Shown here: positions 7,879-34,083 of the stretch, piece after piece | How positions within the stretch are numbered: the stretch's first letter is position 1 | Layout: each line of letters opens with the position of its first letter | DNA from: Nitrospiraceae bacterium | GTDB lineage: Bacteria; Nitrospirota; Nitrospiria; Nitrospirales; Nitrospiraceae | Assembly: GCA_005799365.1 (NCBI GenBank) | Contig: SYGV01000086.1 | Location: forward strand, 1-37,390 | Direction: 5' to 3' | DNA: 37,390 nucleotides | Notes under the pieces: generated by a model | Seen by the model: only the letters and a program-made list of their open reading frames with translations | Databases searched by the model: none | What the model was told of the DNA's origin: nothing | Position numbers and translations under genes: made by a program

Positions 7879-8487
7879 CTACTTGAGCCGCAGCGGCATC
7901 CCGCTGACGATGAAATAGACTTCGTCGGCCTCTTTGGCCACCTGCTGATTCACCGATCCGGCCAGGTCGCGGAACCGTCGCGAGGAGGCCTCCGTCGGCA
8001 CCAGCCCCAGCCCCAATTCGTTGGTGACGACGAGGACCCGGGCCTTGACGCTCCTGATGGCGCGCAACAGTTCGGAGACCAGCGCCGGCACCTTCGCGTC
8101 GGGAACAGCGCGGCCCTGCAGATTACTCAGCCAGAGGGTCAAGCAATCCACGAGGATGGTCCGATAGGCTCCCCCCTGCTTGTCGAACCAACCGGCCAGG
8201 TCCACCGGCACCTCTTCGGTCCGCCAATCAGCCTGCCGCGAGGCCTGGTGCCGGCGGATACGCAAGGCCATCTCGTCATCCAAGGGCTGACCGGTTGCCA
8301 CAAAGACTCTGGGAGCGACGTGACCAGCCATGGCAAGGGCCGCATCGCTCTTGCCGGACGCGGCCCCTCCCAGCACGAGGACCAGCCGCCCGGACGTGAG
8401 CCGTGAGGCCTCAGGCGTCGGGCGAGAAGCTCCGATCCTTTTCCTTTTACTCCTCACGCCTACCCCCTTACGCCTTACGGGCTTCAC
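7879..8487 (-). CDS. cobU: Adenosylcobinamide kinase / guanylyltransferase (start uncertain; N-terminus lies in repeat)
   Basis: LVLGGAASGKSDAALAMA P-loop, VDCLTLWLSNL, VVTNELGLGLVP; first ~30 aa of the ORF are encoded by repeat-like sequence. Confidence 0.92.
   Translation of the reverse strand: MKPVRRKGVGVRSKRKRIGASRPTPEASRLTSGRLVLVLGGAASGKSDAALAMAGHVAPRVFVATGQPLDDEMALRIRRHQASRQADWRTEEVPVDLAGWFDKQGGAYRTILVDCLTLWLSNLQGRAVPDAKVPALVSELLRAIRSVKARVLVVTNELGLGLVPTEASSRRFRDLAGSVNQQVAKEADEVYFIVSGMPLRLK
8395..8482. repeat. Heptad (period-7) repeat block at cobQ/cobU junction
   Basis: GTGAGCC GTGAGGC CTCAGGC ... ACTCCTC ACGCCTA ... ACGCCTT ACGGGC. Confidence 0.65.
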
Positions 8488-9986: not shown

Positions 9987-10001
9987 CCGTAATCTCCGCT
10001 C

Positions 10002-10072
10002 GGCAGAAAGCAGTAAGCAGAAGGCAGCCGTTGTTCTGTCGCTGCCTCCCGCCTACTGCCTTTTGCCTTCCT
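10002..10072. repeat. Heptad inverted repeat, pduO/cobQ gap
   Basis: GCAGAAA GCAGTAA GCAGAAG GCAG ... CTGCCTC CCGCCTA CTGCCTT TTGCCTT. Confidence 0.85.
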
Positions 10073-14671: not shown

Positions 14672-16615
14672 TCAGGAAAACAAACCATGACTCAGCCGGA
14701 TGCCGAAATAGATCGAACGGACCGGCGTGCCCGCGTTGAGAATTTCCTGGTACCGCTGGTTGAACAGATTATCCGCACGGATATAGGCTTCCATGTGCTT
14801 GGTGACTGTATAGTTGGTGGTCAGGTTCCACACGTCGAAGGCCTGCATCCCCTGACGGTCGGCGGTCGTATTGAACCGCGAACCCACAAAGCGGCCAGCC
14901 AGAATGATGCGCAAGGGATCGATGGGCTGGTACCCGGCCTGGAGGCTCCACTGGTCCACCGGCTGACGCGGCAACCGGCTCCCGTTGCTCATATCTCTCG
15001 TCATCGTGTTAGTGTACTGGCCTTGTACGTCGAAAGCCTTGAGGAGGGGCAGGTCCAGGGTCTGCTTATAGGCGAAGCTGGCCTCAAAACCTTTTGTCGA
15101 GGAATTGCCGACGTTGAGTGGACAATAACCGCTGGTACTGAAGGGCGTACAGACCACGGGATCGTACGTCGTCACAATTTGATTACTATACCGGTTCCAG
15201 AAATAGCCACCGCTGAGTTTCAACCGCTTGCCGAACAGTTCCTGGTCCACCCCCGCGTCGAAACTCTGACTCTTTTCCGGCTTGAGGTTGGGATTGCCGA
15301 AGTCGACAAAATACAGTTCATTGATCGACGGAGCCCGGAACCCTGTCCCATAGCTGGTCCGGAGCTTCGTGTCCGTTTCCTTATGGAGATACCCGCCACT
15401 CAACCGGTAGGTCGTGGCATTTCCGAACACGTTATAGTTGTCCTGGCGGATGCCGGCCGTGCCGAAGACCCGATCCCACAGATTCAACTGGGCCTGGGCA
15501 AACCCCGCGTTCGACGAGACGATTCGCTGCGCAAGCGTATCATTTTTCCCCTGTTGTTCGCGGAATTGGTAGCCGAAGGTGAGTAACAGGGGGTCGGCGA
15601 CTTGCATATTGTGCTGCCACTCAAGACGGTTGCTGAGCGTCTGCGTGGTGTTCGGCGATCCGAATGGGACACTCGTCGCACCGGTGCGCAGATTGCGTTG
15701 GAGATTGCCCGGCCAATAGGGAGCATCTTCTTCGCCACGCGCCAACGTCACTTTCTGATTCCACCAATGGGTAATGGCTTGGTCGTAGCTGCCGCTAAAG
15801 ACAAACTGCTGGCTCTTGTTCTTGGCATTAAACACATCGGCTGGCGTCCCGATGTTGTCGATATTGGTCGAGCCGTTCATCCAACGAAAATTGAACTCGA
15901 GCCGGCCGTCCTTAGGCAGATCCACGCCCAACCGCGAGGAGGCGGTCCAGTTCCTGAAGGAATCCCGCTCCGTCGCGCCGAGCCGGGAATCCGCCGTGGA
16001 AAATCCGGCAAAATCCCACCGCGACAGATCCACGGAAAAGTCCACGGGACCTTTCTTGCCGCTGATCTGGCCCCCTTCTCGAATGGAATTGAAGGAGCCG
16101 TATTCGAAGAACGAACTGGCGGTCGTGCCCCCCGCGCCTTTCTTGGTGACGATATTGATGACCCCGCCCATGGCGTCCGACCCCCACAACATGCTTTGGG
16201 CGCCGCGCAGGATTTCCACCCGCTCGATATTGTCGGTCGTCAAATTGGCAAAATTGTAGGCGCCGGTCGTGGCGCTGTTGACGATGGCCCCGTCGATGAG
16301 CACCAGGGTCTGCGTCACACCGCCCCCACGAATCCGAACGTTCGTATCGGCTCCAGGCCCGCCGCTGGAAAAGACCGCGATGCCTTGCGCCAGCCGCAAG
16401 GCATCGGCCACGGTCTTGAATTTTTGCCGCTGCATCTCCTCGCCAGTGATAACCTCCACCGCGCTGGTGAGGTGACTCACCGGCATAGGCGTCTTGGTGG
16501 CCGAGGTCACCACTTCCTCGGTTTGCACAACCGGCTGCGCATCTTCCGCATGGCCGACTCCGAATCCCCACAACAACACAAACGACAGACCAAGCCCAAT
16601 GACAAACTTCCGCAC
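14672..16615 (-). CDS. btuB: TonB-dependent outer membrane receptor, BtuB-like vitamin B12 receptor
   Basis: VVTSATKTPMPVSHLTSAVEVITGEEMQRQ plug domain, RGGGVTQTLVLIDGA, GAQSMLWGSDAMGGVINIVTKKG, C-terminal beta-barrel; directly downstream of a cobalamin riboswitch; GTG start. Confidence 0.93.
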   Translation of the reverse strand: MRKFVIGLGLSFVLLWGFGVGHAEDAQPVVQTEEVVTSATKTPMPVSHLTSAVEVITGEEMQRQKFKTVADALRLAQGIAVFSSGGPGADTNVRIRGGGVTQTLVLIDGAIVNSATTGAYNFANLTTDNIERVEILRGAQSMLWGSDAMGGVINIVTKKGAGGTTASSFFEYGSFNSIREGGQISGKKGPVDFSVDLSRWDFAGFSTADSRLGATERDSFRNWTASSRLGVDLPKDGRLEFNFRWMNGSTNIDNIGTPADVFNAKNKSQQFVFSGSYDQAITHWWNQKVTLARGEEDAPYWPGNLQRNLRTGATSVPFGSPNTTQTLSNRLEWQHNMQVADPLLLTFGYQFREQQGKNDTLAQRIVSSNAGFAQAQLNLWDRVFGTAGIRQDNYNVFGNATTYRLSGGYLHKETDTKLRTSYGTGFRAPSINELYFVDFGNPNLKPEKSQSFDAGVDQELFGKRLKLSGGYFWNRYSNQIVTTYDPVVCTPFSTSGYCPLNVGNSSTKGFEASFAYKQTLDLPLLKAFDVQGQYTNTMTRDMSNGSRLPRQPVDQWSLQAGYQPIDPLRIILAGRFVGSRFNTTADRQGMQAFDVWNLTTNYTVTKHMEAYIRADNLFNQRYQEILNAGTPVRSIYFGIRLSHGLFS

Positions 16616-16649
16616 AACCCACCTCCCCTTTGACTCGAAGGGCAGAGTG

Positions 16650-16895
16650 AACTGGCTCGACAGCCGGGTGTCCTGACTCGCGGATCGTCGCTCTCCCGCG
16701 CCTTCCCATCTTCAGAAGTTGACAGTCTTGAGTTCTCAGTGTTCAGTTTTCGACTGACAACTGATAACTGTCAACGTCTTCGCGACAGTGGCATTCGTGC
16801 GGGATCACTCCTCGTTTACAGTGGCGGTACCGTGATGGCCTTGCACCATCTTCCCCGTTCTGTCTGCCTCTTCTCTCGACCTATCCTCCCTGTTG
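16650..16895 (-). ncRNA. Cobalamin riboswitch 1 (upstream of btuB operon)
   Basis: Minus strand reads GGGGAAGATGGTGCAAGGCCATCACGGTACCGCCACTGTAAAC...GCCACTGTCGCG...GATGGGAAGGCGCGGG...GAGTCAGGACACCCGGCT (B12 box). Outer boundaries approximate. Confidence 0.93.
16718..16775. repeat. Heptad inverted repeat within cobalamin riboswitch 1
   Basis: GTTGACA GTCTTGA GTTCTCA GTGTTCA GTTTTC / GACTGAC AACTGAT AACTGTC AAC; outer arms GTTGACAG/CTGTCAAC perfect. Confidence 0.88.
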
Positions 16896-16955
16896 CGTGC
16901 CCCCATCCGCCTCAACGAGGAATGGGCACATCTTCCTCGTCGCCATCCAGACGCG

Positions 16956-17016
16956 ATCAGCTTTCAGCCTTCAGCTCTCAGCCTTGATCTCCGAGCTGAC
17001 TACTGACTGCCAGCTT
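16956..17016. repeat. Heptad repeat overlapping btuD 3' end
   Basis: ATCAGCT TTCAGCC TTCAGCT CTCAGCC TTGATCT ... GAGCTGACTACTGACTGCCAGC. Confidence 0.75.
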
Positions 17017-17859
17017 CCGGCCCGGCAGCGTCACCCGCGGCAAGCCGGACTGGGGGTGCCGGTCTACCAGGACTCGGCAGCGATAGACCTCCTCCAGCAC
17101 CTCCGGCGTCATCACCTCCTCCGGCGACCCCAGGCGCACGGTTCGCCCCCTGTCCAACAGCAGCAAGCGATCGCAGTGTTGGCCAGCCAGATTCAGATCA
17201 TGAGACACCAGGACCACGGTCAATCCCCGTTCTTCGTTGAGCCGGCTCAGGATCGAGCAGATATCCAATTGGTGATGGAGGTCCAGAAAGGCGGTCGGCT
17301 CGTCCAAGAGCAGCACCTTCGGTTCCTGGGTCAGCGCGCGGGCGATCACGGCCCGCTGGCGCTCCCCGCCCGATACATCGGTGATGGAACGGTGGGCCAG
17401 GTGCAGCACGTCGGTCTCCCGCATCGCCGCCTCCGCCGTACGGATATCCTCCGGCCCTTCCCAACCAAGACCGCTCAGTCCGATGTTCCGCCGATGGTGG
17501 GGAAACCGCCCCATCAGCACCATTTCGGTGATCGAAAATGGAAAGGCGATGGGGCTCTCCTGCGGAACCAGGGCCACCGATCTGGCCACCTCATGCTGCG
17601 GCATGCCGATGAGCTCGCAGCCAAACAACTTCACCGAACCTTCCTGCTGACGCAGCACCTTTGCCAGGATTTTCAGCAGCGAGCTCTTCCCCGACCCGTT
17701 CGGACCCAACACCCCCAGGATCTCGCCCGGACGCACCTCGAAGGTCAGGCCATCAAGGACCCAGCCGTTGCCCGACCGGCTCCCCGCTGGATGGCCGTAG
17801 GAGAACCGGAGCCCGTCCACCGAGTAGGCGGCTCCTCCTGTCAGCTCCTTGATGCTCAT
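16978..17859 (-). CDS. btuD: B12/cobalt-chelate ABC transporter ATP-binding protein
   Basis: LGPNGSGKSSLLKILAKVL Walker A, VSGGERQRAVIARALTQEPKVLLLDEPTAFLD signature/Walker B. Confidence 0.92.
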   Translation of the reverse strand: MSIKELTGGAAYSVDGLRFSYGHPAGSRSGNGWVLDGLTFEVRPGEILGVLGPNGSGKSSLLKILAKVLRQQEGSVKLFGCELIGMPQHEVARSVALVPQESPIAFPFSITEMVLMGRFPHHRRNIGLSGLGWEGPEDIRTAEAAMRETDVLHLAHRSITDVSGGERQRAVIARALTQEPKVLLLDEPTAFLDLHHQLDICSILSRLNEERGLTVVLVSHDLNLAGQHCDRLLLLDRGRTVRLGSPEEVMTPEVLEEVYRCRVLVDRHPQSGLPRVTLPGRKLAVSSQLGDQG

Positions 17860-19010
17860 GCCAGCCGGCCCTTCCGCAAAGTCAGGAGATAGATGAAGAA
17901 CGGCCCTCCGGCCAGGGCGGTCACCACGCCCACCGGAATCTCCGTCGGGGCCAGCAACGTCCGCGCGATCGTATCCGCCGCCATCAGATACATGCCCCCC
18001 ACTAGGGCGGAGGCAGGCAAGAGCAGCCGGTGGTCCGCGCCGGCGAGCAGGCGCAGGGCATGCGGAATGACCATGCCGACGAACCCGATCATTCCGCTGA
18101 CCGACACGACTGCGCCCGTCAGCAGCGCCGACGTAAAAAAGACGGTCTGTTTGACTGCCTCGACCTCGACTCCGAGCGCGCGGGCCGACTCTTCCCCGAG
18201 CGTGAGCAGGTTGAGCGAGGCCGCCTGACGGAACAAGACGAGCAGGCCGGTCAGGAGATAGGCGGCCAGCACCAGCATGGCCGGGTAGTCCGGCGCGGTC
18301 AGCGTCCCCATCAGCCAGGACATCATGCCGAACGAGCGATTCGGCTCCATGATCGACGTCACGAACATGACCAGCGCGGAGAAGACGGCGTTGAGAATCA
18401 CCCCGGCCAGCAACAGGGTATGGATGGGCAGATATCCGTACGCGGTCGCAATACGGTAAACCACGAGCACGGAGAGCAACCCTCCGGCCATGGCGCAGAG
18501 AGAGAGCGCCGAAAAGGCCAGGGCCGTGCCCGTCAACCCGAACAGGATCGCCAGCCCGGCGCCCAGCGCCGCCCCGCTGGAAATACCGAGCACATAGGGA
18601 TCGGCCAGCGGATTCCGAAACAGGGCTTGAAGCCCCACGCCGACGGCTGCCAGACAGCCTCCGACCATGAAGGCTAGCAGCACCCGCGGCAATCGCACTT
18701 GCAATAAAATGACGCCGCTTGCGCCGGCCGATTCAAGACCTGCCGGGCCCGCGCCGATGGCCAGACTTACGATGCGAATCTCTTCGGCAAGCCCGATGCG
18801 CTCCGCGCCGAACTGCAGGCAGATTAGCAGCACGAGGACGGCGGCCGCAGCCAAGGCCGATAGGGTGAGCAGCCACCGCAAGGGCGACAGCCTGGATGAC
18901 CCGACCGGCGCGACACATGACGGCCTTGCGGCTTCTCCTGCCGGCGCCACAAACGCAGTCGCGACGGCCTTTCGTTCTTCCGATCGGGTCTGTCCGGCCA
19001 TGAGTCCCAT
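17856..19010 (-). CDS. btuC: B12 ABC transporter permease (FecCD family)
   Basis: RLPRVLLAFMVGGCLAAVGVGLQALFRNPLADPYVLGISSGAALGAGLAI; SGMIGFVGMVIPHALRLLAGADHR. Confidence 0.93.
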   Translation of the reverse strand: MGLMAGQTRSEERKAVATAFVAPAGEAARPSCVAPVGSSRLSPLRWLLTLSALAAAAVLVLLICLQFGAERIGLAEEIRIVSLAIGAGPAGLESAGASGVILLQVRLPRVLLAFMVGGCLAAVGVGLQALFRNPLADPYVLGISSGAALGAGLAILFGLTGTALAFSALSLCAMAGGLLSVLVVYRIATAYGYLPIHTLLLAGVILNAVFSALVMFVTSIMEPNRSFGMMSWLMGTLTAPDYPAMLVLAAYLLTGLLVLFRQAASLNLLTLGEESARALGVEVEAVKQTVFFTSALLTGAVVSVSGMIGFVGMVIPHALRLLAGADHRLLLPASALVGGMYLMAADTIARTLLAPTEIPVGVVTALAGGPFFIYLLTLRKGRLA

Positions 19011-20011
19011 TACGGCCCTGGCCCCTGTTCAAACGCCTCCGGGTGGATGATCCGGGCCAACGCCTCCAGCCCCTGGGCAATCCTGGGACCGGGCCGGTTC
19101 AGCAGATCGGCGGCAATCTGATGGAACCGCTGATGCTTGACGGCCGAGAGCGTGGTCCATCGCCGCCACTGTTGCTGCTCGCCCTCGGAAACGCTCTCGG
19201 CGCCGCCGACGGGAAAGATCAGGACCTCCGGGTCCTCCTTCAGCACCTCTTCCAGGCTCAGTCGGGGGTACGGAGCCTGCGCACGGCCGGCGACATTGAC
19301 GCCGCCGGCCAGCTCGATCATCTGATGGATAAAACTCCCGGGCCCGACCGTGATGAGCGGCTGGCTGTTCAGGACGTACAGCACGCGCAAACGCGGACGT
19401 TCCTGCACCCTGGCCCTGATCGCCGCAATCTGCCGCCGCATCTCGGTGGCCACCCGATCGCCAGCCTGGGAACGGTCCATCATCCGTCCGATGATCTGGA
19501 CGTGGGAGGGAATCTCCTCCATGGCCTTGGCCTCCAGAATGAAGGTGGGAATTTTAAGCTGTTCGAGCTTGGCCAGGGTATCCGCCCGAAGGAACGTACT
19601 GGGGGCCAGGACCAGGTCCGGCCTCAACGCGACGATGGACTCCAGATTCGGATTCGAATATCCGACTTTCGGTTTGGCGCGGGCCTGCGGCGGATAGTCG
19701 CAATAATCGGTCACCCCGACGATTTCCTCGTCGAGCCCGAGGCTGTAGAGGATTTCCGTCATGCTGGGCGCCAGCGACACTACCCGGGCCGGTCGTTTGG
19801 CCAGGTAGAGCTTGCGGCCCAAGTCGTCCAGAAAGGTCCGCTCAGCCAGATTGGCCATGAACGGCATGCCCGTGAGGATGCCTTGCTGCCGCCGATTCAG
19901 AGCCATATCATCACTCTCACCGGCCTGCGCAACGCCGGTGGTCCATAGCAACGCCAGGCAGAAGCACCAGGCTCCAACCAGGGCGCAACCCTGCGGTCGA
20001 CGGTTCCGCAA
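19010..20011 (-). CDS. btuF: B12 ABC transporter substrate-binding protein (proposed TTG start)
   Basis: PARVVSLAPSMTEILYSLGLDEEIVGVTDYCDYPPQAR...; signal peptide MRNRRPQGCALVGAWCFCLALLWTTGVAQA if TTG at 20011 is the start; the ORF-track start 20035 lies inside a terminator-like hairpin. Confidence 0.9.
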   Translation of the reverse strand: MRNRRPQGCALVGAWCFCLALLWTTGVAQAGESDDMALNRRQQGILTGMPFMANLAERTFLDDLGRKLYLAKRPARVVSLAPSMTEILYSLGLDEEIVGVTDYCDYPPQARAKPKVGYSNPNLESIVALRPDLVLAPSTFLRADTLAKLEQLKIPTFILEAKAMEEIPSHVQIIGRMMDRSQAGDRVATEMRRQIAAIRARVQERPRLRVLYVLNSQPLITVGPGSFIHQMIELAGGVNVAGRAQAPYPRLSLEEVLKEDPEVLIFPVGGAESVSEGEQQQWRRWTTLSAVKHQRFHQIAADLLNRPGPRIAQGLEALARIIHPEAFEQGPGP

Positions 20012-20013
20012 AT

Positions 20014-20050
20014 AAAAAATCCCCAAGGCCTGCAAAAGACCCTGAGGATT
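20014..20050 (-). terminator. Rho-independent terminator-like hairpin between riboswitch 2 and btuF
   Basis: Minus strand AATCCTCAGGG-tcttttgcagg-CCTTGGGGATT followed by TTTT; 11-bp stem with two G-U pairs. Confidence 0.72.
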
Positions 20051-20104
20051 GCACCCGCTTCTTCACCCTCACTCTTTCCCCAGCCCACGAGGGAAAGACG
20101 GCCA

Positions 20105-20360
20105 TGCTCCGGGGAGGTCTTCTGGCTTAGGGTTCGACTCTACTCCCCGCGCCTTCCCATCTCTTTAAACCGTGATCTGTGATGTGTGATACGTGATGCG
20201 TCAGAGGAGTTTCTGGTTCACCTCTGAACCCATTACTGATCACTCGTCACTTGTCACCGTCGCCAAGACAGTGGCTTCCGCGGGTTTCGTCCCCATTACA
20301 GCGGCGGGACCGCGAGGGAGTTGCACCCTCTTCCCTTGACCCGGAGGTATGATTTGTAGA
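20105..20360 (-). ncRNA. Cobalamin riboswitch 2 (upstream of btuFCD)
   Basis: Minus strand GGGAAGAGGGTGCAACTCCCTCGCGGTCCCGCCGCTGTAATGGGG...GAAGCCACTGTC...GATGGGAAGGCGCGGGG...TAAGCCAGAAGACCTCCCC (B12 box). Confidence 0.93.
20172..20258. repeat. Heptad inverted repeat within cobalamin riboswitch 2
   Basis: GTGATCT GTGATGT GTGATAC GTGATGC GTCAGAG ... CTCTGA ... ACTGATC ACTCGTC ACTTGTC AC. Confidence 0.88.
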
Positions 20361-27389: not shown

Positions 27390-27400
27390 CAGAATCGCTC

Positions 27401-27474
27401 AACGATGAGTGATAAACGATGAATGATGAATTTCCGCGCCCGGCCGTTCATCATTTCATATTCTGCATTCATCA

Positions 27475-27479
<5 letters not shown>
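27401..27479. repeat. Heptad inverted repeat between purL and purF
   Basis: ACGATGA GTGATAA ACGATGA ATGATGA ... TTCATCA TTTCATA TTCTGCA TTCATCA. Confidence 0.82.
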
Positions 27480-33963: not shown

Positions 33964-33989
33964 AGCTTTCTCATCATTCCTGAAGAGTG

Positions 33990-34083
33990 ATTCGGTTATC
34001 AGTTTTCAGTTTCCGGAACCGATCACTGAGAACTGGATACCGACAACCCCGTTCCCACGCGTCACGCATCACGCTTCACGCCA
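33990..34083. repeat. Two heptad blocks between nusB and purB
   Basis: GGTTATCA GTTTTCA GTTTCCG GAACCGATCACTGAGAACTG; CGCGTCA CGCATCA CGCTTCA CGCCAAC. Confidence 0.82.

Follow-up and report, generated by a model that had tools for sequence, protein, structure and literature searches.

STRR heptanucleotide repeats were reportedly described by Vioque in 1997 (NAR 25:3471) in the RNase P RNA of heterocyst-forming cyanobacteria. In the tRNA-Leu(UAA) group I intron of Nostoc, the P6b stem is formed by pairing degenerate heptanucleotide repeats of two motif classes, which repeatedly replace one another, and the entire region is also exchanged (PMC4476775, PMC3488679). Dispersed heptads are known in Xanthomonas and Nostoc (PMC4692102), in Geobacter metallireducens, where class 3 sites, for example, hold five MTYCTGA units in tandem and one class is drawn as strand-to-strand looping sequences (PMC2700814), and in Beggiatoaceae and cyanobacteria, as abundant intergenic TAACTGA heptamer repeats (PMC4679880). 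In pneumococcus, a BOX element is found between two T-box riboswitches (PMC3049150).

The window analysed here (the whole stretch of DNA, 37,390 nt) is contig C60 of a bin (1.63 Mb, 145 contigs, 77% complete) whose closest named relatives are Nitrospira MAGs. The cobalamin riboswitches of the window and its relatives resemble P6b in carrying a peripheral stem of heptads whose classes are swapped, yet they are riboswitches rather than introns, belong to Nitrospirota rather than cyanobacteria, and use different motifs (GTTnTCA, GTGAnnn, CGTnnnn and TCAGCnn, as against TDNGATT and NNTGAGT in P6b; PMC4476775). Arms are moreover exchanged between Nitrospira riboswitches that are paralogues within a genome, which is not reported for P6b. 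The Geobacter metallireducens heptads are likewise tandem and dispersed, but were read as regulator binding sites and not reported in riboswitch arms (PMC2700814); TAACTGA is a single invariant heptamer, directly repeated and frequently placed immediately 5′ of start codons, whose predicted RNA is nearly unstructured (PMC4679880); and the BOX element, although likewise a repeat that is dispersed, structured and attached to riboswitch RNA, lies between riboswitches and not inside an arm (PMC3049150). A literature search, with most subscription papers outside its scope, returned no report of riboswitch heptad arms or of Nitrospira heptad hairpins. The cyanobacterial RNase P repeats are reportedly also short tandem repeats within a structured RNA gene, in a different RNA and phylum.

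Results

Two cobalamin riboswitches with heptad arms

Two matches to RF00174, both on the minus strand, were found in the window by cmscan. These riboswitches, their downstream genes and their arms are as follows:

16645-16900, minus strand: RS1, predicted cobalamin riboswitch aptamer, 5′ of btuB (RF00174, 81.9 bits, E 7.2e-19, model positions 1-189)
14672-16615, minus strand: btuB-like gene for a TonB-dependent vitamin B12 receptor, 3′ of RS1 (TIGR01779 best, E 1.1e-74, under the curated cutoff)
20095-20360, minus strand: RS2, predicted cobalamin riboswitch aptamer, 5′ of btuF-btuC-btuD (RF00174, 86 bits)
16978-20035, minus strand: btuF-btuC-btuD-like B12 ABC transporter genes, 3′ of RS2 (BtuF, BtuC and ABC ATPase family matches, under the curated cutoffs)
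16708-16785, minus strand: RS1 apical arm, 78 nt, between CCACTG and GGGAAGG (cmscan insert; lag-7 z 3.7; MFE z -3.0)
16718-16775, minus strand: 58-nt heptad hairpin GTTGACAGTTATCAGTTGTCAG...CTGTCAAC inside the RS1 arm (sequence; fold)
20159-20268, minus strand: RS2 apical arm, built of GTGAnnn / nnnTCAC heptads, 110 nt in length (RF00174 insert; lag-7 z 5.3; MFE z -2.6)

Membership of RF00174 is indicated by score, both matches being well over the gathering cutoff of 31.5 bits with positions 1-189 covered, and by context, B12 genes (btuB-like and btuF-C-D-like) lying downstream. In RS1 and RS2 alike, the model skips one long insert at the apical loop (CCACTG-GGGAAGG). A preliminary description of RS1 had pointed to a heptad hairpin of ~58 nt between GCCACTG and GGGAAGG with complementary outer arms, and this hairpin was found on the minus strand at 16718-16775, within the 78-nt insert that the RF00174 alignment maps to 16708-16785. 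Its letters, from 16775 down to 16718, are GTTGACAGTTATCAGTTGTCAGTCGAAAACTGAACACTGAGAACTCAAGACTGTCAAC; the outer arms GTTGACAG/CTGTCAAC are present, with full pairing in the outer stem only and internal loops in the middle. The RS1 arm is an apical extension with 7-base repeats: it matches itself at lag 7 with a score of 0.48 (z 3.7, p ~0.002; 500 dinucleotide shuffles), and its MFE is −26.6 kcal/mol (z −3.04 versus shuffles). The RS2 arm, which that description had not mentioned, occupies the identical model position with a different heptad. The core was said to be undisturbed by the arm, and appears so from the RS1 score, which is still far over the Rfam cutoff.

In addition, a hairpin at 16620-16655 (CCCTTCGAG..AAAGGG(G)) overlaps the btuB Shine-Dalgarno and is kept in aligned relatives; the expression platform may include it.

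Heptad arms across Nitrospirales relatives

Riboswitch arms of relatives were extracted by anchored patterns. In Nitrospirales, arms fall into plain hairpins of ~15 nt (9-16 nt) and long ones of 63-118 nt, in proportions that do not represent population frequencies because long-arm riboswitches were preferentially fetched. Three apparent long arms were false positives: L052, L076 (143 nt) and L143. Among the 76 genuine ones, the mean match was 0.44 at lag 7 versus 0.19-0.25 at lags 3-6 and 8-13, and the best autocorrelation lag was 7 or 14 in 73, the exceptions being one L043 arm and the sister arms L112 and L121. Orthologue arms lacking lag-7 structure had been named as evidence against the preliminary description; the relatives' long arms are instead nearly all heptad-built.

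The dereplicated, strand-register, rest-of-riboswitch and modulo-7 analyses were based on a set of 73 long arms that still includes L143: with similar arms removed, lag 7 or 14 was best in 56 of 60 arms (p<0.01 in 51; mean MFE z −4.3); complementarity between the arm strands was 0.67 at the best register, ~0.55 at shifts of 7 and 14 and 0.38 otherwise; no lag-7 peak was found in the remainder of the same riboswitches, outside the arms; and long-arm lengths showed no modulo-7 preference. By lag 7, register and folds, the arm is a stem of mutually pairing degenerate 7-nt repeats, as in trnL P6b.

The btuF-side sister riboswitches L112 and L121 have arms of 78-81 nt without heptad periodicity, which are perhaps decayed heptads or of another source. 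Long arms at the same riboswitch site also exist outside the order, and the confidently placed ones are not heptad-built. Other Nitrospirota lineages (L266, L272 and L278) carry different palindromes, CCCTCTCCC...GGGAGAGGG, in the same arm, and the 58-nt arm of a distant relative, L265, has period 9, not 7.

Block replacement and copying between paralogues

In alignments of close relatives, change is limited to the arm, with flanks nearly constant up to CCACTG and from GGGAAGG on; orthologues with near-identical cores carry unrelated heptad arms, or none. Complete replacement of the arm, with flanks aligned to the arm base, was seen in L079/L087, L105/L101 (with BtuB end branches of only ~0.01), L077/L081 and window/L075/L073. 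The window, for example, has 78 nt of the GTTnTCA type, whereas its closest relative (88% BtuB identity) carries a GTGA arm of 108 nt and the second closest an arm of 9 nt. With btuB-side arms sorted, partly by eye, into four states ((i) short, (ii) TCAG/GTTnTCA, (iii) CGTnnnn and (iv) GTGAnnn), at least 17 changes of type were counted on the BtuB protein tree (56 tips), of which 10 are between short and long. On tree and alignments alike, motif classes swap between close relatives as they do in P6b.

The preliminary description had the variable peripheral helix acquired in RS1. Acquisition holds for the apical extension, but the helix position itself is apparently ancestral, as a hairpin of 14-15 nt is present in many relatives, and therefore only the extension is acquired; likewise, the RS1 arm has been replaced, but such replacement is not peculiar to RS1 and recurs across the family.

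Arms also resemble one another within genomes. In three genomes the riboswitch pairs share 89, 87 and 82% identity in their arms and 75, 72 and 73% in their cores (G001, G062 and G038, respectively), against a background arm identity of 59%, which argues that arms are copied between riboswitches. The RS2 arm of G001 also matches the RS2 arm of the window (89% identity), so that in G001 copying of the RS2 arm into RS1 would be the parsimonious reading.

We therefore propose, with a probability of about 0.72, that the cobalamin aptamer has an apparently ancestral, dispensable peripheral helix with the arm as its apical part, and that in Nitrospira and its kin this arm serves as a recurrent acceptor of hairpins made of two inverted heptad arrays. 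A purely local origin, in which a short ancestral hairpin grew in place by 7-nt slippage without other loci, is unlikely. It would suit the two G010 arms, which differ by a one-sided 7-nt indel, the shifted-register pairing possible in heptad stems and the polymerase-slippage ideas quoted for heptamers (PMC4679880, PMC4692102), but it does not explain unrelated heptad types on nearly identical flanks in close relatives, and is strained by paralogue arms that are more alike than their cores.

Dispersed heptad hairpins and other RNAs

The arm had also been suggested to be built from, or invaded by, a heptad element dispersed in the genome, and like-built GTTnTCA hairpins do occur elsewhere in the same genome: the RS1 arm matches such hairpins in contigs C128, C51, C94 and C22 and at 33980-34029 of the window. 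Heptad elements outside the riboswitches of the window, none assigned to a strand, are:

8388-8486: dispersed heptad hairpin, intergenic, GTGAGGn type (fold MFE −43.5)
9992-10070: dispersed heptad hairpin, GCAGAAA/AGGCAG type
16957-17017: TCAGCnn heptad array just 5′ of RS1, at the end of btuD
27393-27476: dispersed heptad hairpin, GATGAnn type
33980-34029: dispersed GTTnTCA hairpin, of the RS1-arm heptad type (75% identity, E 0.002)

Non-riboswitch intergenic heptad islands were clearly enriched, numbering 51 at lag 7 versus 5-9 at lags 5, 6, 8 and 10, and 25 at lag 9, the genome-wide counts for the window's genome resting on stretches and searches. Many of these islands are hairpins built like riboswitch arms. 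Averaged across all intergenic bases outside riboswitches, the lag-7 excess is negligible, and thus the heptads are discrete islands and not a general composition effect. Genomes hold several heptad types, the best copies being ~75-78% alike, and for none of the arms was an identical donor copy found outside riboswitches. Genomes with GTGA arms had more GTGA-type matches elsewhere (p 0.011), a weak test because it compares related genomes by a single query and with hand-assigned types. In L073 (G002), where the btuB riboswitch has an arm of only 9 nt, that riboswitch is directly preceded by a long tandem array of CGTGAAG heptads.

Among other RNAs, the TPP riboswitch of a relative, G020 (L251:158-344), has an 84-nt CGT-type heptad hairpin in its variable arm, just before CUGAGA; the TPP riboswitch of the window's own genome has no heptad arm. 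None was seen in the RNase P RNAs of the screened Nitrospirales relatives, where the two flagged cases (L167 and L253) have the appearance of normal, conserved RNase P sequence, nor in the tmRNA of relatives scanned.

That this RNA hairpin is a preferred insertion site of a transposable hairpin (REP or MITE-like, moved by a transposase of the Y1/RAYT or a similar kind) is still less probable than local growth. The dispersed copies, the recurrent use of one site, its sharp boundaries and the G020 TPP hairpin fit such an element. PF01797 (Y1 transposase), however, although present in 13 of the 31 genomes searched, was not found in the window's own genome (G000, 77% complete), G001 or G003, all of which carry heptad hairpins, and what the copies have in common is a consensus heptad, not one sequence. 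A link to REP/BIME elements moved by RAYT was not supported by the same PF01797 result; as to REP/BIME identity, each genome holds several heptad types in place of one conserved palindrome.

Discussion

In the recurrent-acceptor reading, heptad hairpins with short repeated words in common would replace one another through recombination or gene conversion, and slippage would add or remove 7-nt units. The replacement route is inferred, since neither an identical donor copy outside riboswitches nor an enzyme was identified. The two strands of an arm bear complementary heptad consensus words and can pair not only at a shift of 0 but also at 7 and 14, so that an arm in which one strand gains or loses a heptad, as between the two G010 arms, would still have a stem. 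Compensatory change within the GTGA type was limited (double change in 2 of 33 pairs; covariation term +0.57), and paired positions within one arm type are mostly invariant heptad letters; hence the stem is maintained by conservation of the heptad word and not by pair-by-pair covariation. The riboswitch probably tolerates turnover of the arm because of its place at the end of a peripheral helix, and any effect on B12 sensing would be expected to be slight and might concern folding rate or RNA stability.

It is very improbable that the long arm is instead a functional, conserved helix of the riboswitch, kept at its length by selection for, say, tertiary docking or folding kinetics: stems are strong across types and a type change alters both strands together, but many orthologues, close sisters included, have a hairpin of 9-16 nt in its place, and arms vary widely in length and sequence. 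An assembly artefact of metagenome bins can practically be dismissed, since, although the window comes from a fragmented and incomplete bin, heptad arms occur in the complete chromosomes FP929003.1 (Ca. N. defluvii) and CP092081.1 and in many independent assemblies, and the RS2 arm recurs in G001 at the identity given above.

Beyond acceptance of hairpins at this one helix, heptad hairpins may tentatively be viewed as a mobile, recombining pool of RNA modules, copied directly from one riboswitch to another within a genome and also into further structured RNAs (cobalamin and TPP), with gene conversion or targeted insertion reshaping riboswitch architecture; we hold this broader view to be possible, at rather less than even odds.

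The heptad-arm phenomenon of cyanobacterial introns and RNase P is here extended to riboswitches of another phylum. With the rest of the riboswitch fixed, the numerous independent swaps of its arm constitute a natural experiment, in which the entry of dispersed repeats into a functional RNA, their exit from it, and the tolerance of a riboswitch to peripheral structure are directly testable, while the copying of arms between paralogues offers a handle on how heptanucleotide repeats spread.
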